NCBI GenBank assembly: GCA_027577595.1
Contig: JANBRJ010000005.1
Location: 186,001 to 250,000 of the forward strand
Direction of reading: 5' to 3'
DNA: 64,000 bases
Origin: Coemansia sp. RSA 487
Taxonomy: Eukaryota; Kickxellomycota; Kickxellomycetes; Kickxellales; Kickxellaceae
Every line of letters begins with the position of its first letter. The first letter of the stretch is position 1. This document shows positions 23,925 through 37,696 of this stretch, piece after piece. Made by a program: the position numbers and the translations under genes. The notes below the pieces were generated by a model that had not been told where the DNA came from, searched no databases, and saw only the letters and a program-made list of their open reading frames with translations.

Positions 23925-26900
23925 TTAGTATCTACGCAGCCGCATAAAAAATGCGTTGGCAGACAGTCTGCTCGATTCTGGAAGATATGATTTGTAGAAA
24001 TTCACCACATACTTTTCGGGCTTGAACCCAAACTGCTGATATAGCACCATCGCCGCGTTGTTTGCAGATACATGTAGCGTGACGTCCTTGGTAGGAACCG
24101 TTTGCGTCAAATGGTAGAGCATGAACTTTGCAATTCCTGCGCCCGCCCACCCTGAAGACACCGCAATGTACGTCAGGTATGCGTCAGGAGTCAGAAACGC
24201 ACACCCTATGACCAGCCGCTTGTACAGAGCCACAACCGTGAACTCGGGGTACATCAGCGCCTCTCTTACGTCAACGCCGCTCCAGAACGTCCGCGAAAGC
24301 AGTGCATTTACCTGATCCACGTGTTCCTCCTGGAAATACACGTAGTCGATCGACTCACCTCCATTTAATGCCTCACATATATTGTCTTCACGCACAAATT
24401 CAAGCTTGCCGAACACTTTGTGCTGCCGCGATCGGATGCTACGGTGCATCCAGAGCATCGCTGGCTCCAGTACATCGGACGCCCGCTCACTGTTATCCGT
24501 TTTGATCCAGTCTCGCCAAATAAACGGCCGAAGCAGCCGCCCGTGGTAAGGGCTCACTCGCGCCACAGGCGATGTCAGGCTGTCGCGCAGCACTGCTCTG
24601 CCCAAAAGTCTTGAGGCAAACGAATGTACATACGGGGTGACCGACACCAACTCACCACTTTCCTTCATATTTTTTGCTGCATCGTCAGACGATTGTGCAC
24701 CACCTAGCGCACCCGAAACGCTCTGTCCCTGCATTCCCAAAGAGCCGGCACGTGATGACTCACCGCTGACGTCGTGTATACTAGAAATGTCCTGCTGATA
24801 CCCATCCTCGTGTCCTTCTATGCTGGCCGTAGTACCCGCAAGCATCATCTCCCGATTATCGCTGCTAGGCATCGTCATATCTCCAGCAACATTGCGGCTA
24901 TCTTCATCACGGGTACTCCAGACACGCTGTCTTCTGCGCATGCATTCCTTGACAGTGCTATCGATGTCAAACGACTGCAACCCAAGCATCCTCTTGAAGC
25001 GCCGCAGCTGCAACCTGCGGTAGAGACGCCGGGCTTGGGGGTCCGACATGGCCACTTTGCTCGAATTAATACATGCACTCACATCCCACTGCGCTCGCTC
25101 GCTCAGCATCGCTGGTTGAGCGTCTGCAGCTGCGGATGACTGCTGTTTGCTTGACACAGTATATTCCAGTGCATCATCGCTGTCCATCTTCCCATTCTCT
25201 TCGTCATCCAAAAGCCGTGTCCACCCGAACCCCCCTGCCTCTCTTCCGATGCACGGTGACTTTAGTGCTACATCATCCACTTCCATCGCCTCGGAACTAT
25301 CCACAGCATCCCTAACTTTGTCCACATCATTGGCGTCGCTTCCTGGCATGCCATCGGGGCCATCTACACCCATCGATCGTTAGAAAGAGAAGCACAGTAA
25401 TGAATTAATAAAGTCTCGTTTTTATTAATTGCCCTTTTCGTTTATTTTCCACCAATCTTCTTTCGTCATTTTGGGGCAAGACAGCAATAATAATTGAACA
25501 ATCGACAAAACACACCATCCATGTTTAGTTGTTTACCTTTTGGCAGATGTTCCATTCTCTTCTCTGCATCGTTAGTTTGGCTGTGCTTTCCAGACACCGT
25601 CGTGGATAGGAGCTTCAGTGGCTCTCTACTGGTGTCTAGCGTCTCCTCGAGCCCTGCATCCGTCGACCACGAGCTCAACGAGCTAATTGATTCTGTGTCT
25701 TCCCCCAAGTAGCAACCATCTACATTTGCATAAACATATGTTAAAATAGAATTAATCAAATGGCAACATGTTAGTGCGTTGTCCCCTCTATTGTTTTCTA
25801 CTCCTTGAACTGATATTGCTTATAGAGTCGAGATGAAAAAAGAAAAAAGATTCTGTTTTTTTGTGGTTTTGTGCCAATTCCCAAGAGCCTCGCCACTATA
25901 AGCAAACCAGAACGGCCAAGCAAAAAGAAAAAGAAAAGCTTGGAGAAAAACGAACACTCAAGTTTGAGGAGCTGGTGGGTTTTGTTTCTCCAATTTACTC
26001 TTTTACAGAAGGGAAATGTTTACTCCAGATGGTCCTGCTTACCCAATAATTCCACAACGTCAGTGCTCTTGGTCTCGGATTCGCTTGGTCTCTCATCATC
26101 TTCATCGTCCTCTTTTGACCCAGTAGCTGGCACAACAGCGTCTTTTGATTCAACATTACTTGTTGAAGCACCAGCTGGTGCCGTTGTCATTGCTGTTGAC
26201 GGTTCATCCTGTTGGTCCAGCCGCTGCTTTTCCATTTTCGAATAGATCGCAAAGCTCTGAATCAGATCGTCGTCCACTTCTACGGTTTTGGCTTCAGTCC
26301 GGCGCTTTTTTGTACGCGCGCGCTTACTCACAGTTCCCTGTGCAATAGTATCTTCGTCCTCATCTTCGTCGTCGCTAAAGGACACATGATGCCGCACAGC
26401 GCCCCGACGTTGCTTTCCAGCCGCCTTTGACTCATTTAAAACCTCGAGTATTTCCTTCTCCGCGTCTGTCACCCTTTTCGCTGATGCACTTGCGCCATCC
26501 TTCTTCCGAGCCCGCTCGCGCTTTGCTGCAGGTTTGTCCGAGTCACGTGCCTTTGTCGGTCCTCTAAACCGTGCCTTTGCAGGCTCCGCAGCCTGGTGCA
26601 GCGTCCAATTTCCCGTCTGCTGTGTTTCCTCGAATCCAGACTTGAACAGCAAGCTGTGGGTCGATAAGCTCCCGGCTACCGTATTATGCCAGGTCGCCGT
26701 CTTTGCCTTTCCCGGGAACAACCCATCCCAGTGTTCACCGATCGTTGCGCAAATGTTCTCACGCCACCGAAAGTATTTTTTGTCCGGGTCTGATTTGATC
26801 AAATGGTACAATACCAAGTATATTACCTGCACCCAGCTAACCACATCCCGTTCGTATTGTTCGTCCTCGCCGCCGTTGCATATTTTGCACGTGAACTTGT

Positions 26901-27239
26901 AGAAGCAATCTCCTCTTAGCGGTTTGATTTTCAAGCAGCTGACGCAGTCCCAGTGGAACAGTTGTTTGCATTCCCCGCACCGCAGCATTGGGTCTCCTTC
27001 GCTATAATCCATTCCGCAATAGCAATATGTCCCTTCTTTGTTACGGTTGTGTTCATCATCCCACTCGAGAGACTCGAGCTACCATTATGCACATTGAGAA
27101 TAAAACAAGGCTAGTATGTTAATCTGCGTCTGATCCTTATTTCTCTTGCAAAAGCCGACTTTGGTGTTTTTTCTCTTGTATCGGGTGTGGTATTCTACAG
27201 CAATATAAAACTTACATCGTATTTAAGTTTACTTGCCAT
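23925..27239 (-). CDS. KAT14: KAT14/CSRP2BP-like protein: PHD-type finger plus GNAT domain (ATAC complex)
   Basis: Four exons on the minus strand: 27239-27216, 27078-26043, 25719-25537 and 25363-23925 (introns 137, 323 and 173 nt; donors GTAAGT, GTAAGC, GTAAAC; acceptors all TAG), 893 aa. Exon 1 codes only eight residues (MASKLKYD). Exon 2 holds a PHD-like finger (TYCYCGMDYSEG, MLRCGECKQLFHWDCV, YKFTCKICNGG) and the following ERDVVSWVQVIYLVLYHL...WHNTVAGSLSTHSLLFKSG block, the animal KAT14 N-terminal signature. Middle is acidic and Lys-rich. Exon 4 ends with the GNAT fold (about residues 755-893): DVREALMYPEFTVVALYKR, WAGAGIAKFMLYHL, VSANNAAMVLYQQFGFKPEK. In animals KAT14 is the scaffold of the ATAC histone acetyltransferase complex. 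All exon phases agree, which supports one gene rather than two. Confidence 0.9.
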
Positions 27240-27845
27240 AGCTAGACCGGTCCACAAGTAAGAAGCGTCTCTTTAAATGCAATAATATATAACAATAGAA
27301 AAGGATATTAAATTTAAATACGAAAAAGTAAAAGAAACAAAAAAAACTCCAACTTTACGCGTTTTAATACGCTTTCAAAAGTACCAGTGGCTTTGAGTTT
27401 TTTTTTCTTAAAATAATACGAGCCTATAAGATCAGTGCTATTGAGGGATCAGATTAAGCGATCCAAGACCACCAGACTCACCCCACCCAGGGAAGCACAT
27501 TAAGCAGTCAGCAGCTGTGCCAGATGAGATACTGTGCTGTGCAAACCTAGTTGCGTCGAATAAGAGGGATGTATATGCATCGAATGGTGAAAAGTTTGTG
27601 GTGGCAATAGCGCCATTTTACGATCCAAGAAAATTCGTTTGCGTCAGTTTGCGTTATATTTGCACTTGGAAGCAAGAGACGCAAACGGAGCTTTGTGGAG
27701 AAAACTGTTCGCTGCTACACGCCTATCATTTCACATTAAAATGGATTGGCTTCTCAGTTTCTGTCTGTGCTTTCAGTGTGATTAGCTAGCATTAATCCTA
27801 ATAAACCCTGATAATTTGGAGAAATACAACTAAGCCATACACTCT
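27240..27845. other. Intergenic, KAT14 promoter and edge of the mobile-element island
   Basis: AT-rich with T and A tracts. A frame at 27517-27789 (+) shows no family motif, though it may be diverged 5' sequence of the transposase remnant downstream. Confidence 0.4.
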
Positions 27846-28390
27846 TTGTCTGATGTAGACGTGTTGGAGGAAGACTGCCACTTGAATAAGGAGCCAGAGA
27901 ACATGTTTGCATGCATGCGCATATTGACGGATGTTTCATTGAGAAAGTCTCAAGCCGTTTCCGCTGCTAAAAAAGCAAAGCCAATGGCAACGAGATCAGG
28001 ATTAGTGGGCGTGTTGGCACACGGACAGAGTATTTTGTGGTGATCTGGAGCGATACTTCCGTGATTCCTGATCTAAAGGAACCCGATACACGATGACATA
28101 CAAATCGTGCCTGCCAAGCAACCAAACCGGTTATCTCTTAGTTTTATTCTTTTTATCAAATCAATACATCACAATTTTCTGGCCTACATCTCAAATATAA
28201 TCGATGTGCTGGATGCAAAGAACATGAATGGCCACTATCTTGTGATGGACAATGCTCCAATCCACACGCCATTAGCCATTCGAAACCTAATAGAAAACAG
28301 ACGATACAAGCGCCTATATCTGCCTACATACTCACCCTTTCTAAGTCTCATTGAGGAGCTTTGATCCAAAGTAAAGTGGGAGTATTTCAG
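27846..28390 (+). mobile_element. Decayed IS630/Tc1-mariner-like DDE transposase fragment
   Basis: The clear part is 28107-28361: HYLVMDNAPIHTPLAIRNLI and YKRLYLPTYSPFLSLIEEL are the second catalytic Asp block and the YSPxLNPIEE Glu block of fungal DDE_3/IS630-type transposases. The frame then has TGA at 28362-28364 where relatives have Trp, and continues SKVKWEY to about 28,385, where it abuts the retroelement fossil. Upstream, 27846-28043 contains a weaker match (SLRKSQAVSAAKKAKPMATRS) to the region after the first catalytic Asp. The frames are not continuous and the N-terminal DNA-binding domain is not recognisable. No terminal inverted repeats were found by eye. Confidence 0.7.
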
Positions 28391-30914
28391 CACGAATCGC
28401 TCGTTTCGGATCAAAATAGTTGATAATCGGTGCAGACGACATCCGTTCCTTCAGCTCATTAAATGCTGGTCCTGCTTCGTCATTCCAAACAGATCCCTTC
28501 GTCGCCATCAAATTCGTCAGTGGCATAGTAATCCGCGAGCAGTTTTTGACAAAACAGCGATAACAACCACTAAGATCGAGGAAGGCCCGAACATCAGTAA
28601 ACGATTCAGGCAGACGTCAATCTTTAGCTGCTGCCACTTTGCCTGGATCTATTCGCAAGCCCGTCCTTCGTGAGCACATAACCCAAGGACTCGACCGAAT
28701 CCTTGAAAAACTCGCATTTCTCCGGCTTCGTACGTGGATTGTTATTCTGCAAACGCTGGAGTACTGTATCCAAATGTTTCGTCTCTTCTTCAGCATTCCT
28801 TAAATAAATCAGAATATCATCCGAGTACACGATGCAATACTTGCCAATCAAACCGCGTAGTGCATGGTTCATCACTCGCTAGAACACTGCCGGTGCATTG
28901 GCCAGCCCAGACAGTACAGCCATGTACTCGTACGATCTCGATTTTGTTTGGAAACCTGTCTTCGGAATATCCTCAACACGAATACGCACCTGGTGATATG
29001 TCTGAACAAGATCGATCTTCGAAAAAATATGCGTGCTATGTGTCTTATCAAGCAAGTCATCAATATGTGGCATTGGAGACGCATCCTTAACTGTACACTT
29101 GTTCAAGCCGCAATAAGTAACGCACATGCGCATCGTGCCATCCTTCTTGCGCATAAGTAACACCGGAGCAGCCTGAGGCAACGTAGATATGCGAATGTAG
29201 CCTTTCTTCAACAATTCGCCTATCTGCTTCTCCGTCTCAGCCATCTCTGCATGTGACAAACGATGTGGCACTCTGGTGACCGGTCCAGACTCCTATGCCA
29301 GATGGATCTCCATTTCAGGACCGCCAGGCGCAAGTCGACTGATTAGCAGCTGCTCAAGTACCTACTTATACCTTGAGCACAACGTCGTCAGCTGAACTTC
29401 CTGACTCGTCGCCAGTCCCGCAACAGACAATTGAGACTTCAAACCGTCCTCGGAGGATCTCACGCAAACCCAGCCCATCGAGTCGATATCGCCAGCTTTT
29501 ATTAACTTTGTCACTGCGTTGGCTGTAATCAGTTTGATCGCGTTCTCTGCAACAGACGCAGCTCAAACCACTGTCCCCGAGCCTTTCCAATGTTTGTCTT
29601 TTTCAGTAATAAACACACCCTCCTTGCAATGGATAACTCTCTTGTGCTCTTTCAGCCAGTTGTTACCAGGTAGAATATCAGCCGTCGCTGGCATCACCAA
29701 ACAATAAGTATTAATGCGCAAATTGCTACTGAAATGAATAGGCAACCTGCAGTACTTTGTACAGTCATGATGGTGTGTACCATCTGCCAAAACAGTCGGT
29801 ATCGACGCGCCCAAACCATACAACTTGCTTTTCTACTTCTTACAAAACTCCTTATCGGCAATAGTTATCCGCGACCCTCCATCCACCAAAATGTGAACTA
29901 AGATCTTGTTAGCTATGCCGTCAGTACACAACTGCTTCGCAGATATGATTTGTGCAGGTGTTCCATTCAACGGACTCGCTTCGATAAACACTATACTACG
30001 CAGCACAACCAAGAGCTTATCAGTTCTCACAACCTTCGGTCAGTTGTTCAGATCATAGCGAAGCGTAGCTGTGATAATTGCATCAATTTTAGCTGGCTCC
30101 CGCTGCATTAGCTTTTTGGCTGTGAAAAAGCTCCTAGCCTTTGGTACAACCGCATCGAACTTATACACTGTATTAGCTGCTGCTTCAGTAATGAACCGAT
30201 TACAAAGCTTGCTCGGAAGCTTTACAATAGAAATATATGTTGCAAGCCCCTGTCCGACATCGTATACGCCGTGTTTGCATAGTATTTTATGTTCCTCAAG
30301 GAGGGCTTCAAACTCAGCCGAACTCGTCGTCGGCGGCTTCATCTGATAAATTCAAATACCAGCGTCTAACCGATGGATCGCGTCGCAATATAGCGTGATC
30401 AGAAACTCTCCCAATGAACTCCACGCCAGAATCTCATGGCTATTCAAGGTGCACCAATTATCGTACTTTTCTGATCGCTTGTCTATCGAAACGTTCATCA
30501 ACGCGAACAATACCCATAGATCCTTCTCGGCCCGGAACAATTTAAAAACATAGTCGGTATCTGTGCCTGACAACGAACTTGTAGTTTCAATAATCGCCAT
30601 CATCATACACGTTGCGGCAACCAATACAACACAACAATAGCCACTAAACAATCCAACATTAGAGGAAGCGATTTGAATTAAACTATAATAGTATAAAAGT
30701 CGGTGGTGCTACCAAGTTTCATAATGCTTGTTAGTATTTTCCAAACGGAACTAAAGTTGCTCCGTGCTTTTATTCCAACAAAATATTGGCTTTTATAGCC
30801 GTCAAAACATTCTGACAATGATGATGGCTCGCAATTTGCACGCCTAATCGTTATCACATGAGCCGCCATCGCAATATGATTGTCTCTTGGAACGGTCATA
30901 TTGTCGGGAAGCAT
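28391..30914 (-). mobile_element. Fossil Ty3/gypsy LTR retroelement, broken
   Basis: Minus-strand remnant in gag-to-pol order from high to low coordinates: gag-like sequence (about 30,650-30,040), retropepsin-like protease (about 30,030-29,570), reverse transcriptase (about 29,271-28,624) and the start of the RT/RNase H connection (about 28,526-28,391). Recognisable marks are the protease VDGGSRITI block, the RT active-site YSDDIL block and FSKIDLVQTYHQ. Integrase is missing and no LTR was recognised at either side; the gag-side limit is uncertain (30,660-30,914). It is broken, with several disruptions across its length. Moderate decay suggests an old but not ancient copy. It ends abruptly against the IS630-type transposase fragment. 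Confidence 0.8.
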
Positions 30915-31299
30915 ATATCATATGTTTCCCAATTATCTAGTTCAGTTGTTATAGTGTTTGTACGGCTATAAAAGCCAGGTTGTTTATGAAAAATAAAGGA
31001 GGAACTTTAGCTCCATCTGCTCTTTTGATATTCTTGTGAAAAGTGATATATCCGTATCACAAGTGTTCCCAGGCAAGCTAAAGAACGAAAAGAGAATGTG
31101 TGCCTGATTAGGAAAGGCAACATGACATTGATGACTCAATGTTGGCCAATGCTATGTAACGACCAAAGAGCGTTTGTTTTTCTTTTTCACTTTTGTTTTT
31201 CCTTGGCTTTCCTTTGACATCTTATTTCTACTAGTAACACCGACTACACCTTTCAACGCATATATTAGCTATCTGCTCTTGCTTGCTCACTCATCTGCA
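30915..31299. other. Region upstream of the Fanzor gene with a nested hairpin
   Basis: Non-coding. It contains a TATAAAAG box-like motif (about 30,968-30,975) and a strong hairpin at 31033-31063: outer arms CTTGTGA/TCACAAG and an overlapping GTGATA/TATCAC pair. A pyrimidine-rich leader precedes the Fanzor ATG. It could hold the left end or promoter of the Fanzor element. Confidence 0.45.
31033..31063. repeat. Hairpin with two overlapping inverted repeats
   Basis: CTTGTGA (31033-31039) pairs perfectly with TCACAAG (31057-31063). GTGATA (31043-31048) pairs with TATCAC (31055-31060). It lies about 240 bp upstream of the Fanzor start. Confidence 0.6.
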
Positions 31300-33478
31300 A
31301 TGGACGATGAGGATATATTGGACACAGGGACACGCGTTATAAAGTGTCCCCTAAAATCTCTGGTGAATGACAGAAATGACATCACCAAGGTAAACGACTA
31401 TGTTGTAGTGGCCAACACAGCCTCTGCACACATGTATGAGCTAGCTCGTTGGATATTTGTCCATGAGCTGGCTGCTCACAAGCAGTTCGATCCCTCTGTG
31501 TACCTGGAAAAGAGGTTTTTTGGTGAGGTATTCCTGCACCTCACCAAGCGGAAAGCCAGGCCGAATGTCAAGGCTGAAATCCAGGAGTACAGAAGGGTCA
31601 TACGCAAGCACCTGGATGCGTACAAGGAGGCTGCTGGCATCACAGAGTTTGATATAGCCAACCCAAACCAGACAGCACAGTTCGAGGCAGCAAGAATTTA
31701 CACTGCGTATGTAAATAATATACAGACCAAGTTTGGTCAGTATCTTCGGCGTGCAGTAAATGTTCTGCTGAAAACTCGGGAGCGCAAGAGGGATCTTGAG
31801 GAGGCAATGAAGGGCAGAACAACGGATGAGATAAAGGAAGCGTATGAAGACCAGATTTGGAAGCCTGGACTGGAGTTGAAAGAGGCGATAAAGCACCGCA
31901 ACACTGTTCTTCCAGCTATCACTGTGGGCAACAAGAACATCGGGGACATTCTTGAACCTGTGTTAACAGCATACGACAACGACTACAAGTTTGAGGAGGA
32001 GGGCATTTATTATGATATCAAGGCTCATCCAAAAAAGCACTTCAAAGCATTCTATTGCTTGGCAGTGCTTCTTGAGACCAGCAACTGCAGATCTTTCCAG
32101 TGTTTCCCATTGCGGAAGTCGCTTGTGCCAATGCACATCGAAATTGACACCACTTTATTATGTAAAAGCATAATGGGCTGGAGCTATAACGCAAAGTCCC
32201 CCATTAAAATATATTGGTATAGGCTGTTCAACGAACAGTCGAGGGTGCTACGGACAAGAAACGGCTTCAGATTCTATGGCACGATACAGACTGACGGCAT
32301 GTCAGTGATCAAAAAGACTGCAGCGGCCAAAGAAAAAAGCAGCTGGAAAGCAAAGAAAAGGGATACTGAAGAAAATACTGCCATTGAGACCAGCAGAAGT
32401 GGGCCAGCTGCCCCAGTCGAGAGCACAGCTACTGACTCACCGCCAAAGGACTATCCCAAGAAGCCCAGCAAGCCCAAGAAGCGAAAAAAGCCAGGGGGAA
32501 AGAAGCTGGACGAGTCCACGTATATCCACGAGCTTTTGCCAGAGCAGTTGGCCAACATGAAAAACCCAATTTTCATGGATCCGGGTCGCCAGGACATTGT
32601 CTTTGGCATGACAGATGAGAGCACCTCTGAGGAGAAAGCTCTTTTCCGATACACACGGAGCCAGAAGGCTAAAGAGACCCGGGCAACCCGTTACCACAAG
32701 TTGAGGGAAAAGGTCAAGAACGAGCATCCAGATAGCAACGAAATCAAGGCAGCCGAGGCTAGATTGGCTGCTTTTTCGTGCACATCAGTATTGCCAGGTA
32801 AATATGAGCAATATGTCAGGACACGTGCTGCTGTTTGGCCAGTGCTGAGTAAATTCTACACAAACACCATGACTGCCAGCAAGAATCGGAGCAGCCCTCA
32901 GCCAATTCATCGCAAGCTTCGGCAATCTGCCCACATCAAGCAGCAACAAGCCGATGAGCAGCTAGCAAAGAGCATTCGGGCGACATGTGACGATGAAAAC
33001 CCCACTGTGATCTTAGGCAACTGGAGTGCGCCAATGGCTCGCTACCATGAGCCTATACGGGGGGTCGGGTTTCGGCGAATGCTGAGGAAGAAAGGGTGCC
33101 AAGTCTATCTTATTGACGAATTCAGAACGTCGAAGGCTTGCCCAAGCTGCATCACTGGCACTCTCAAGAAGTTCCTGAAAGTGCCCAACCCCCGCCCCTA
33201 CCAACGAGAGAAAATGAAAGGTCCTCTGTCACGGTCTCCTTAAGTGCACCAACGAACTATGTATGGGGACTGTGGAAGTGGATGGTGTGTTGACCCCTCG
33301 TTCGCGCATGTACAACCGAGATCTCGCAGCCGTTCTCAACTTCAGGCATATTTTCCATGGCCTTCGCGACCACGGCGAGACTCCAGAGCGCTTCTGTCGC
33401 AGTCAGCCTGCAGCCGTTGCTACCACCGATGAACAGCAGCCCAGGAAGAAAAGGAAGACGGCAAGGACAGACAAATAA
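31300..33478 (+). CDS. Fanzor (eukaryotic TnpB-related RNA-guided nuclease), interrupted frame
   Basis: Starts at ATG 31300; an upstream in-frame TTG gives only an implausible Phe-rich leader. The first frame runs 647 codons to 33243. Homology then continues in the +1 frame to TAA 33476-33478, so there is a single one-base shift near 33,220. Motifs in order: RuvC-I IFMDPGRQDIVFGM with Asp427; a RuvC-II-like VILGNWS (from residue 570); VYLIDEFRTSKACPSC with Glu607 and the first zinc Cys pair (614, 617). In the shifted frame follow HGLLKCTNELC with the second Cys pair and MYNRDLAAVLNF, the RuvC-III Asp (codon 33319-33321). The DEFxTSKxCPxC and NRD blocks are hallmarks of Fanzor proteins. Known family members cut DNA guided by an RNA encoded next to or overlapping the gene's 3' end. 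A Lys/Pro-rich linker lies at about residues 380-410. The gene looks recent: one interruption in about 725 codons. Confidence 0.88.
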
Positions 33479-33518
33479 CGACCACCATGAAACTCAGCCA
33501 AGGTTATAGCCGCGGCAG

Positions 33519-33534
33519 ATCCTAGTTCTAGGAT
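33519..33534. repeat. Perfect 7-bp inverted repeat with 2-nt loop
   Basis: ATCCTAG (33519-33525), TT, then CTAGGAT (33528-33534). It lies 41 bp after the Fanzor stop codon and would form a tight hairpin in RNA. Confidence 0.7.
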
Positions 33535-33602
33535 TAGATGCTGTCCCTTTTGCAGGTAGGTGCTCGAATGAGAGCCAAGGAGACAAACATCTGTGACTGC
33601 TT

Positions 33603-33630
33603 TTTGACGATGGTACTTTGACAATGGTAC
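33603..33630. repeat. 14-bp tandem direct repeat
   Basis: TTTGACGATGGTAC followed at once by TTTGACAATGGTAC, one mismatch. It lies about 125 bp after the Fanzor stop and may mark the right end of the element. Confidence 0.7.
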
Positions 33631-33847
33631 TAATTATTTGTATTTTCTCTTGTGTGTTTTCCTGTTTTGCACTGACGCATATGCTACGCCAACTGATGCA
33701 AACGACTTGCTACGCCTGCGCAAACGCCTTTTTTCTGGAACTCAAACCACATTATTGTCGCTGTAAACCTTTTTAGTCTGTAGTGATTAGAATTAAAAGA
33801 AGGAGAAAAGAAAGAAAGCTTGTCAATGTTGTATGTTCAAGTGAGAC

Positions 33848-36800
33848 TCAGACAAGACAGGCGTTGTAATACGCGCGACTGCCATTGTCCTTCGTCTTGA
33901 GCTGCCACTCGGCGGATTCCATTAGGCCCTGGAACTGGCTCTCGTTCGCCACGCCGTTGCCGTGCAGCCCGTTGCGCGAGCAAAAGTTATTGTATGCATC
34001 GAATGCTGCAGCCAGCTCAAGCCATGCGTAGGGCTTGACATCAAGGCACCGGTCCACAAACAGATTGAAGAACTTTTTCAGCTCCTTCGGCATTTTTCTC
34101 GATCTTGCACCGATGTCCTCGCTGCCGCTGCTTTCGCTATCAGTGGCATCGTCCTCATCCTCGTCGCTGTCGTTCTCGAACCGAGTGGCGTATTTTGCGC
34201 CTCTGGCACGCGACGCTCCGGGCCGAGCAAAGGAAGAGGTCTTCTCAGACGTACGGTTTGCCGACCGACCAGGCAGCTCGTAAACAGACGTGATGTTTGC
34301 TCGTGCTGTGCTGCTGCTGCCGTTGGTGGTGCCACGAGGGCGGGGCATGGTGCTTGCCCTCATGTCGCTGCTGTTGGAGTGCGCATTTGTCTGGATGCGA
34401 AGGTTGGACGACTCCTTGACCCAGCGGCTAGCCGGCACACGGTTCTGCATTGCTAGAGGAGATGATCCGCCCGACGATCCGCCCGATCCCGATGCCGACG
34501 ATGTCAGCGAATGCCGCGAGTTCACTGCATTAAACGGCCCGGACGCAGTGCTAATTGTGTTGTACGTGTGGCTGCGAGGCATGGACGGCACAGCACCAGC
34601 ACCGACGCTGGCAATAGACATGCGGCGTTGTTGCTCGGCGGCAGGAATGACGGGATGCTGCATCATCGAGAGCTGCTGCATATGCTGCTGCATCATTTGC
34701 TGCTGCTGTGCATTGGAGTTCATCGTTGCAAGATGCGGCGATGAAAGGGACATTCTGGACTGCATCGTTGCGCGCAACGGATGAATGTCGCCAGCCCCTG
34801 CTATTGACATGCGGCCGTTGTTGCCAGCGTAGGTCGATAGCGCAACGTTATCGTCAGCATCAGCTCCGTTCGCACCCATCATACCCATCCCGTTCATGCC
34901 CACTCCGTTCATACCCATACCCATATGGTTCATTCCCATGTTGTTCACGCCTACCATTCCAGCGCCGCCCATCTGCATACCGCCTCCATACATGGTGCTG
35001 CGCATGTTGGGTGCACCAAGCTGCTCTGCCGAAAGCGATGGAGCCATCTGCGCATATGGTGCACGTCCGGAGGCGCCACTCATCATCGACATATTATCAT
35101 CAGCCCAGCCCTGTGGCGCGCCGTACATGCTAGGGAATGCGCCACCGCCGAACCGCCCGCCACCAACACCAGGCTGCCCGAACATGCTGTTCGGCATAGC
35201 CATTGCTTGGTTACGACGCATCTGCCGCTCCCGCATCAAGCTGCTCGAGTCGCGGTACTTTTGCTCGCTCTTCATCTGCTCGCGCGTCGCAATCGCTCCA
35301 ACCAGGCCAGTCGGACGCTCAATTGGATCGGCCTTTTTCTCGACGGTCAATAGCGGGCCTCCGACAGAATCCATGCCCATGCCCATGTTCATGCCCATCA
35401 TGCTCTGCTGCTGCTGGTTCCACATGTTCATGCCGCCTGCCCCATCCATGTACGTTGTAGGTCTGCCGAGCACAGATCCCGGTCCCTGCATTTGCATCTG
35501 CATATTGGCCCCGGCTCCCATCATCATCATCTGGTTCGGGTCCTGCTGGCCATACATGAACTGTTGTTGTGGCTGCATACCGGGGTACATCTGTCCCATC
35601 TGGTTAATGGCCATGCCTAGGTTGCCACCGTAGAACGACTGTGTGTTTGGCATGATCTGCTGCTGTTGCTGCTGCTGCTGCATAGGAAGCTGGCCACCCT
35701 GCAGTTGACCCTGCCCGCCAAAGCCAGGGCCCACCATGGAACCACGCTGCAGCATCTGCTGCTGCAGTTGCAGTTGCTGCTGCTGCTGAGATTGCATGCC
35801 GTTACTGTTGTTGTAGGCCATGCTCATCCTCTGGGCCGCTAGCGCTGCAATGTTACCAAGCGGCGCGTCGCTGTCTGACTCTGTATCCGACTCTGCAAGC
35901 TGACGCACTTGCTGGCCGTTTTCACCGTTGCCGTTCAGCTGCTCGTTTATAGATGGGAATTGCGCAGTGTTGTTGCTTTGCGGCGGAGAGTCAGCAATCT
36001 TGAGGTTGACGATGGCCTGTGATGCGTCGTCAGCAAAAGTGCCACGCGTAGCCGAACCTTGCACAGGCGTCGGCAGCGAAGGCGCCGTTGACGACGAGCG
36101 AGCAACGCTTTCGTTGTTGCTATTAGTGCTTGCTCTTACACTGTCCTTTGCCGAGTTGGCAGTACCGGTCGAGCTCTGCTTACTGTGACGCTTGGTAAGC
36201 TTGCTCAGTGCTGTGCTGCCTTCTTTGGCAGAGGCAGACGATTCGCGTCTGTTGTTCTCCTTGCTCTTGCCACTCTTGTGCAAGAAGCGGAAGTGTCGCT
36301 TTTGTGGCTGACTATCGGTCGTATCTTCATGGTCAGATTCGGGCTCTGGCGCCTTTGAAAGCCTCGCAGCCTTTTTAACAATCTTGTTGCCATTTTTGTG
36401 GCTAGCACGTGCAGTAGGGGCAGCGTTGGCGGGTGTATCCACCTCGTCACTGCTCGCATCACTATCCCATGGCATCTTTGATTGAGTTGCCTGTGCCAAG
36501 GCAGCGTTGTTGGTCGCCGAGTCCGTGTTCGCAGTCGATCCAGAGGTGGAATACCCAGCACTTCCGTCGACAATTGCAGAGCTGTCCAGCTTTAGGCACT
36601 TTTCCGAGGTCAGATTCTCAAGCATGCGCCGAGCAGTGACAGGCTCCATGATCTCAATTGACTTGTCTGAAATGCTGCTGGGCTGGAGGTAAAGGTCGTC
36701 ATGGCTCGGCAGAACGTCTGGAGTAAACGATGTGGGCATGTTGTACAGCTTTGCCTGGCACGACACTTCGACCAGGGCGGATGCCATGTCGGGCGGGCTC

Positions 36801-37696
36801 TGGAAGATAACAAGACCATACGAGCCATGTGCTCGAGAGGCTGCGACCATCGACGCGCTGGCATCGCCATCGGCTTCCTCTAGTTTGGGCTGCAGCGAGC
36901 TGTCAATGTCGCAGTCGCCTTCAAGCTTGGCAATAAGCGCCGTGTCAACCATGTCGATGCTGTCTGGGTAGACAGAGTAGGCGTTGCGCACATTCGTCAA
37001 CATGGCAGCCTGCTTCTGTGTGTCCTCTGTGCGGAACACGATCTGCAACGGGCTGGACATTAGGATCATTGTGCATGGGACCCAGTCAACGGTGCCAGAG
37101 AAGCGCACTTGGACGCTGTACTCCTTCGGGCGTTGTTGGGCGGCAATTGTCGCTGAATAACGTTCGTTGATCAACGCAGTGGTGTAGAACTCGTAGAGCT
37201 TTGCAGCCTCAAAGCAGGCCAGGCGCAGTGCGCGCACCCAATCGTTCATGGCTCTGTCGTCGACAGCCTGCATATAGAAACGATTGGCACCCGAGGAGTG
37301 AAGAGTCCAGACGCTGTCGCGCTTCTTGAGCTTTCCAACAATAGAGCACGCAGCATCGGTGATGTTGATAAAGTTGGGTTTGAGGACAATGTTTTTGATG
37401 TGTGCGACAGTACGCTCAAACTCGGGAGAGGCTGGCTGGACTCGTCCATCAACAATTGCAGTGACGTCCTCGAGGTAAGCGGAGAGCTGGGGATCGAGTA
37501 GATTCCAAAAGATCAGGACAGGACCGCGCAGCTCCACGTACCAGCGCGTCCACTTGCGCATGTTGTATAGCTTGCCATCGGCTGAGCGATCATTCTTCTT
37601 TCCAAGGACGCCTCTGATGTATAGCTTCTGTCTAAAAGACTCAAAGTATGAGGTTGTAGCGGCAACAGATGCCATGCCAACAGCGGCAGACGACAT
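33848..37696 (-). CDS. PH-domain protein of the Skg3/Caf120 family
   Basis: 1,282 aa, ATG at 37696. The N-terminal PH domain covers about residues 20-170: KLYIRGVLGKKN, KWTRWYVELRGPVLIFWNL, then WTLHSSGANRFYMQAVDD and DWVRALRLACFEAAKLYEF, as in fungal Skg3/Caf120 proteins. A Ser/Lys-rich segment (about 400-520) is followed by a long Gln/Met/Gly/Asn-rich region (about 610-1,050) that looks prion-like or phase-separating. The C-terminal 80 residues form a conserved-looking helical domain (KELKKFFNLFVDRCLDV, YAWLELAAAFDAYNNFCSRNG). Caf120 associates with the CCR4-NOT complex and Skg3 with cell polarity and the wall in yeast; which role applies here cannot be told. Confidence 0.8.
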   Translation of the reverse strand: MSSAAVGMASVAATTSYFESFRQKLYIRGVLGKKNDRSADGKLYNMRKWTRWYVELRGPVLIFWNLLDPQLSAYLEDVTAIVDGRVQPASPEFERTVAHIKNIVLKPNFINITDAACSIVGKLKKRDSVWTLHSSGANRFYMQAVDDRAMNDWVRALRLACFEAAKLYEFYTTALINERYSATIAAQQRPKEYSVQVRFSGTVDWVPCTMILMSSPLQIVFRTEDTQKQAAMLTNVRNAYSVYPDSIDMVDTALIAKLEGDCDIDSSLQPKLEEADGDASASMVAASRAHGSYGLVIFQSPPDMASALVEVSCQAKLYNMPTSFTPDVLPSHDDLYLQPSSISDKSIEIMEPVTARRMLENLTSEKCLKLDSSAIVDGSAGYSTSGSTANTDSATNNAALAQATQSKMPWDSDASSDEVDTPANAAPTARASHKNGNKIVKKAARLSKAPEPESDHEDTTDSQPQKRHFRFLHKSGKSKENNRRESSASAKEGSTALSKLTKRHSKQSSTGTANSAKDSVRASTNSNNESVARSSSTAPSLPTPVQGSATRGTFADDASQAIVNLKIADSPPQSNNTAQFPSINEQLNGNGENGQQVRQLAESDTESDSDAPLGNIAALAAQRMSMAYNNSNGMQSQQQQQLQLQQQMLQRGSMVGPGFGGQGQLQGGQLPMQQQQQQQQIMPNTQSFYGGNLGMAINQMGQMYPGMQPQQQFMYGQQDPNQMMMMGAGANMQMQMQGPGSVLGRPTTYMDGAGGMNMWNQQQQSMMGMNMGMGMDSVGGPLLTVEKKADPIERPTGLVGAIATREQMKSEQKYRDSSSLMRERQMRRNQAMAMPNSMFGQPGVGGGRFGGGAFPSMYGAPQGWADDNMSMMSGASGRAPYAQMAPSLSAEQLGAPNMRSTMYGGGMQMGGAGMVGVNNMGMNHMGMGMNGVGMNGMGMMGANGADADDNVALSTYAGNNGRMSIAGAGDIHPLRATMQSRMSLSSPHLATMNSNAQQQQMMQQHMQQLSMMQHPVIPAAEQQRRMSIASVGAGAVPSMPRSHTYNTISTASGPFNAVNSRHSLTSSASGSGGSSGGSSPLAMQNRVPASRWVKESSNLRIQTNAHSNSSDMRASTMPRPRGTTNGSSSTARANITSVYELPGRSANRTSEKTSSFARPGASRARGAKYATRFENDSDEDEDDATDSESSGSEDIGARSRKMPKELKKFFNLFVDRCLDVKPYAWLELAAAFDAYNNFCSRNGLHGNGVANESQFQGLMESAEWQLKTKDNGSRAYYNACLV

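Follow-up and report, generated by a model that had tools for sequence, protein, structure and literature searches.

Does this stretch of Coemansia sp. RSA 487 DNA (64,000 nucleotides, hereafter the window) carry a gene for a Fanzor, a eukaryotic RNA-guided nuclease, and, if so, is the gene still whole? A preliminary description, made from the sequence alone, had read a nearly complete Fanzor gene into positions 31300-33478. The reading occupies two plus-strand frames, referred to here as piece 1 and piece 2 (Table 1), whose domain names were assigned via alignment to solved proteins. Piece 1 begins with an ATG at 31300 and ends with a TAA at 33241-33243, the mechanically called ORF starting upstream at a TTG (31174), and its final seven residues are out of frame with the homology. 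All of the motifs quoted in that description were recovered in the two frames, at the residues given for them. The frame from 31300 holds D427-P-G (codon 32578-32580), VILGNWS, and VYLIDEFRTSKACPSC with E607 (codon 33118-33120), and the frame from 33218 carries HGLLKCTNELC and NRDLAAVLNF.

Table 1. Positions of the Fanzor1 gene and of features in and around it (window coordinates; a dot marks features to which no strand applies).
Feature	Position	Strand	Remarks
Host-like ORF	26020-27012	-	weak PHD match, under cut-off
Borderline inverted repeat bracketing transposon cluster	27632-27663 / 33677-33708	.	25/32 positions match
Tc1/mariner-like DDE_3 transposase relic	28077-28440	+	DDE_3 E=5e-12 for 28107-28364
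Decayed Ty3/gypsy retrotransposon	about 28344-30350	-	reverse transcriptase 6.1e-9; RNase H and protease sub-threshold; several frames
Imperfect palindrome, 278 bp	30742-31019		arms 72-77% complementary; blastn E=7e-5
Weak inverted repeat bracketing gene	31187-31217 / 33564-33596	.	possible element ends; not significant
Fanzor1 piece 1	31300-33243	+	647 aa; WED, REC, RuvC-I (D427), RuvC-II glutamate (E607), first half of zinc ribbon
Lysine-rich linker, WED to RuvC (residues 336-408)	32305-32523	+	from alignment; holds NLS-like PKKRKK
Fanzor1 piece 2, +1 frame	33218-33478	+	86 aa, then stop; CTNELC as second half of zinc ribbon, Asp of NRD as RuvC-III residue (33320-33322), basic cluster PRKKRKT at the C-terminus
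Candidate guide-RNA scaffold	33518-33576	+	stem 33518-33535 (7 bp) and stem 33559-33576; not significant
Host-like ORF	33848-37696	-	fungal PH-like domain (Pfam)

To identify the family, phmmer searches were performed against all PDB chains. Piece 1 matched the Fanzor1 of Parasitella parasitica (PpFz1; 9cf0_P) at 1.1e-83, in stretches within query residues 32-640, that of Spizellomyces punctatus (SpuFz1; 8gkh_P) at 1.7e-31 and that of Guillardia theta (9cer_P) at 0.005; these three distinct sequences, all Fanzor1, were the only ones at E<=1, with no further chain among the matches. Piece 2 matched 9cf0_P at 8.9e-10 (piece 2 residues 1-62) and 8gkh_P at 0.0028, while the remaining 10 of its 12 rows, at 0.25 to 0.87, were unrelated proteins. 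A stop-free piece 1 was found in none of 2000 random sequences sampled from its own dinucleotide transitions, and since this result stands together with the first two PDB matches of piece 1, a chance origin of the two-piece reading is excluded. Openness alone is weak evidence for piece 2, as 115 of 2000 such samples were also stop-free; these controls were drawn from dinucleotide transitions and are not exact shuffles. In a host-codon score, frame 1 was the top of the three frames at all scoring-window starts from 31180 to 33160, and the piece 2 frame was top at 33250, though not at 33340. GC3 values of 0.569 (piece 1) and 0.600 (piece 2) both fall inside the range spanned by 15 host ORFs (0.509-0.800).

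Family collections returned little. Cas12f1-like_TNB was the sole Pfam match to piece 1 and lay below threshold (17.5 bits against a cut-off of 26.3), Pfam gave no match to piece 2, and neither the NCBIfam nor the PHROGs families matched the gene. A relative of Fanzor2, TnpB or Cas12 would have the DPG and the RuvC layout in common with this gene, and the sub-threshold Cas12f1-like_TNB match is consistent with one. However, the piece 1 matches at E<=1 were all Fanzor1 chains, a profile search of the PDB (with a profile partly built from those same chains) retrieved Fanzor1 chains only, bar one match at 0.95, and NCBIfam and PHROGs yielded no family, so that such an identity is extremely improbable. 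Compared by proxy, through these chains and collections rather than a separate Fanzor2 profile, neither Fanzor2 nor TnpB gave a better match than Fanzor1. The gene almost certainly belongs to Fanzor1, and it is clearly a new member of that known family and not a new kind of system. The Fanzor identity first proposed thus stands, as Fanzor1, on PDB matches to both pieces; so does near-completeness, as Fanzor1 homology runs along both of them. The profile comparison that had been suggested was made by proxy (PDB chains, Pfam, NCBIfam and PHROGs) and, at E<=1, left piece 1 with Fanzor1 chains only.

Searches for further relatives were negative within their scope. Pattern searches gave 17, 137 and 25 matches in viral contigs and 114 in prokaryote genome contigs, none of which tblastn confirmed as relatives. 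By tblastn there was also no second Fanzor copy within the 64-kb window, other hits having E-values of 1.6 and above. Among the literature matches listed for Fanzor, no report was tied to this locus, which says little.

The catalytic residues were located by alignment to 8gkh_P, where D427 falls on chain residue 777, E607 on 935 and the Asp of NRD on 1000. With a chain tag offset of 394 (arithmetic of this analysis), this triad corresponds to SpuFz1 D383, E541 and D606, which are reported at two magnesium ions in excerpts of PMC11423790 and PMC10432273. On the strength of alignment to solved Fanzor1 proteins, the acidic residues would be expected to cluster at one site; AlphaFold2, run on piece 1 alone without an alignment, was uninformative (mean pLDDT 36.2, pTM 0.19). 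The RuvC-I DPG, given as a Fanzor1 feature in the excerpted text of PMC10711439, is present at D427. Glu607 had been put forward as a RuvC-II residue in the alternative position, and this proves right because the same excerpts describe a glutamate six residues ahead of the zinc finger as the repositioned Fanzor form and E607 has exactly that spacing (E607-FRTSKA-CPSC), in addition to its alignment to SpuFz1 E541. The interval between D427 and E607 (179 residues between them) is above the 120-160 of the TnpB search pattern in PMC10711439. The Fanzor1 pattern D-X(125,275)-[TS][TS]XX-C4 zinc finger-X(5,50)-RD, as it appears in excerpts of PMC3627910, is matched by the DNA when both frames are combined and by neither alone, with 182 residues separating D427 from T610. 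The zinc pair CPSC lies in frame 1, and CTNELC lies in piece 2 with the RD 18 residues further, so that no one open frame holds the three catalytic acids and both zinc pairs.

Comparison with the solved proteins places the gene nearest to PpFz1 (PDB 9cf0-9cf3; PMC11423790), with 36% identity (196 of 547 aligned positions), followed by SpuFz1 (PDB 8gkh; PMC10432273) with 28% (126 of 453); these counts cover the aligned rows of piece 1 only, unaligned parts being absent from them. The two solved fungal proteins are identical to each other at 129 of 448 positions. The DPG, GNWSAP and LIDEFRTS blocks are common to PpFz1 and the window gene, as are CHGLL and NRD in piece 2. In PpFz1, the FRI domain is an insert of about 100 aa in RuvC that binds cyclophilin, according to excerpts of PMC11423790. 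The window gene is without this domain, since chain residues 991-1095 are passed over in the alignment: query residue 529 falls on PpFz1 chain residue 990, and query residue 537 on 1096. It also seems to be shorter than PpFz1 at the N-terminus by roughly a hundred residues (query 32 on chain 536, with the tag length assumed), and it differs from PpFz1 in a longer basic linker between WED and RuvC as well as in the frame change. This linker comprises some 70 residues and is lysine-rich in the window gene, where PpFz1 and SpuFz1 have about 30. PKKRKK in the linker and PRKKRKT near the C-terminus of piece 2 may serve as nuclear localisation signals. SpuFz1 resembles the window gene in N-terminal length (query 81 on chain 481, or about SpuFz1 87 at the same tag offset) and in the aligned catalytic triad. 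The G. theta Fanzor1 (PDB 9cer) is a weak and distant match (24% identity) with DPG and E-x-x-TS-x-x-CPSC in common; its third catalytic position is Asn in the excerpted PMC11423790, whereas that of the window gene is Asp.

Whether the gene is whole depends on the change of frame at about 33217-33221. The alignment of piece 1 to 9cf0_P ends at residue 1197 and that of piece 2 begins at 1198, and since the homology resumes at the next chain residue, no stretch is missing; the single frame shift placed near 33,220 by the preliminary description was therefore correctly read. A short intron restoring the frame in the mRNA would be conceivable in a eukaryotic host. However, the homology runs on unbroken from one side to the other, the slack being a single residue relative to PpFz1 and SpuFz1 being two residues longer, so that an intron would not fit; the one GT-AG pair inspected by eye (33221 to 33244) would delete the conserved HGLLK without altering the frame. 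We therefore rejected an intron at this point, its likelihood being negligible.

Programmed +1 ribosomal frameshifting, which would make full-length protein at low frequency, is made conceivable by the overlap of the two frames at the change point and by a piece 2 that is both open and conserved. Known +1 frameshift sites include those of Ty1, Ty3 and antizyme; no site of these types was seen by eye, and both solved fungal relatives match as single chains, so that frameshifting, too, is very unlikely.

An error of assembly or consensus, which the preliminary description had offered beside a recent copy, is the more serious alternative, in which case the organism itself would carry an intact and possibly working Fanzor1. 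There is just one frame change in a gene that is otherwise open and motif-complete, and short A runs occur in that stretch. Against an error, 15 host ORFs in the same window, amounting to 9,778 codons (stops counted) or about 29 kb, run without an internal stop, although they were picked for being open and are thus only a partial control on assembly quality. When 20 window ORFs (two of them gypsy pieces) were compared with Pfam, 17 matched a family at E<=0.001, and several carry Pfam domains nearly end to end in a single frame; two conserved host ORFs are without the domain start, matching AMP-binding from 59 of 384 and Ras from 13 of 162, which may reflect an upstream exon or a break and further limits the control. 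Because the 15 host ORFs are open, within the limits of that partial control, the evidence leans towards a real lesion and not an assembly error, and we consider an intact gene possible but doubtful. Taken together, the locus is probably a fungal Fanzor1 gene of mobile-element descent, full-length in homology, that has undergone a single genuine frame change towards the 3' end; it most likely represents the gene of a Fanzor1 element at an early stage of pseudogenisation.

From what is known of the family, an intact relative would bind a guide RNA from its 3' flank, use a short DNA motif and roughly 15 nt of guide for recognition, and cut via the RuvC site. The copy as read would instead give a 647-aa protein that would keep WED, REC, its guide- and motif-binding domains and two of the three catalytic acids; with only half a zinc ribbon and no third catalytic Asp, it should not cut DNA. 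Nuclease-dead TnpB repressors exist, and a nuclease-dead Fanzor1 would be their eukaryotic parallel. It is conceivable, but very improbable, that the 647-aa product is expressed and has been retained as a nuclease-dead, guide-RNA-directed DNA-binding protein, with the linker and its NLS-like cluster serving nuclear retention. An early pseudogene remains our preferred reading.

We also examined the flanks for a guide RNA. SpuFz1 is flanked by 30-nt inverted repeats and has an expressed guide RNA (PMC10432273, in excerpt), whereas the window gene has candidates only. The candidate scaffold begins 39 nt past the stop codon. In a fold scan of 19 windows for a guide RNA none was significant; the three 90-nt windows with the whole first stem gave z-scores of -1.59 (the lowest of the scan), -0.63 and -1.00, and the last alone holds both stems. 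Rfam gave no match and no tRNA was found. The two stems past the stop codon recall the solved layout, in which the first stem has seven base pairs according to excerpts of PMC11423790, a likeness that is not significant.

Possible element ends were weak or borderline. For the inverted repeat that brackets the gene, 24 of 200 random samples scored just as well (best pair within 300 bp of the gene start), and no target-site duplication was seen by eye. Its geometry, without significance, is like that described in excerpts of PMC10432273 for SpuFz1, whose guide RNA extends across the right-hand repeat of the element. The borderline repeat around the transposon cluster has arms 6.0 kb apart, and the random samples that reached its score numbered 0 of 200 when the left side spanned 1.2 kb, 2 of 500 when it spanned 4.4 kb and 14 of 500 when it spanned 9.3 kb. 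Its score of 18 was equalled by a direct match at another place in the window, and no further occurrence of the 19-nt core consensus of the repeat turned up in the window at a tolerance of 3 mismatches. Its left arm sits inside a 114-aa open frame with sub-threshold Pfam matches only. Two combinations of terminal inverted repeats and duplications near the gene, with 2 of 12 positions mismatched and a duplication of 2 bases in either case, were taken as chance, a judgement made without a shuffle control. Overall, neither significant transposon ends nor a convincing target-site duplication was found around the gene. In the right flank (33680-33735), CGTTTGC and GGCGTAGCA each occur twice on the minus strand, as seen by eye; these motifs are possibly subterminal repeats or part of the 3' end of the neighbouring gene.

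The gene lies within the stretch 27013-33847, between two minus-strand host-like ORFs. The DDE_3 relic in this stretch abuts the gypsy relic and has a stop within its IEEL-SKVK block, which we take to be conserved. Just upstream of the Fanzor gene, the palindrome carries TATAAAAG in both arms in opposite directions and resembles a foldback element or a pair of LTR fragments in inverted orientation. Because the neighbouring gypsy and DDE_3 copies are broken into many short pieces, the Fanzor1 copy looks far less decayed than they are. Fanzor1 is known inside Mariner, MuDr and other elements (excerpts of PMC3627910).

For the field, this gene is one further copy in a large family, from which 162,187 homologous sequences had been collected according to excerpts of PMC10432273. 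As a fungal Fanzor1 near the solved branch that is without the cyclophilin-binding insert, it bears on the question of whether the insert was added on. Should the frame change prove genuine, the locus would be a Fanzor gene caught soon after breaking.
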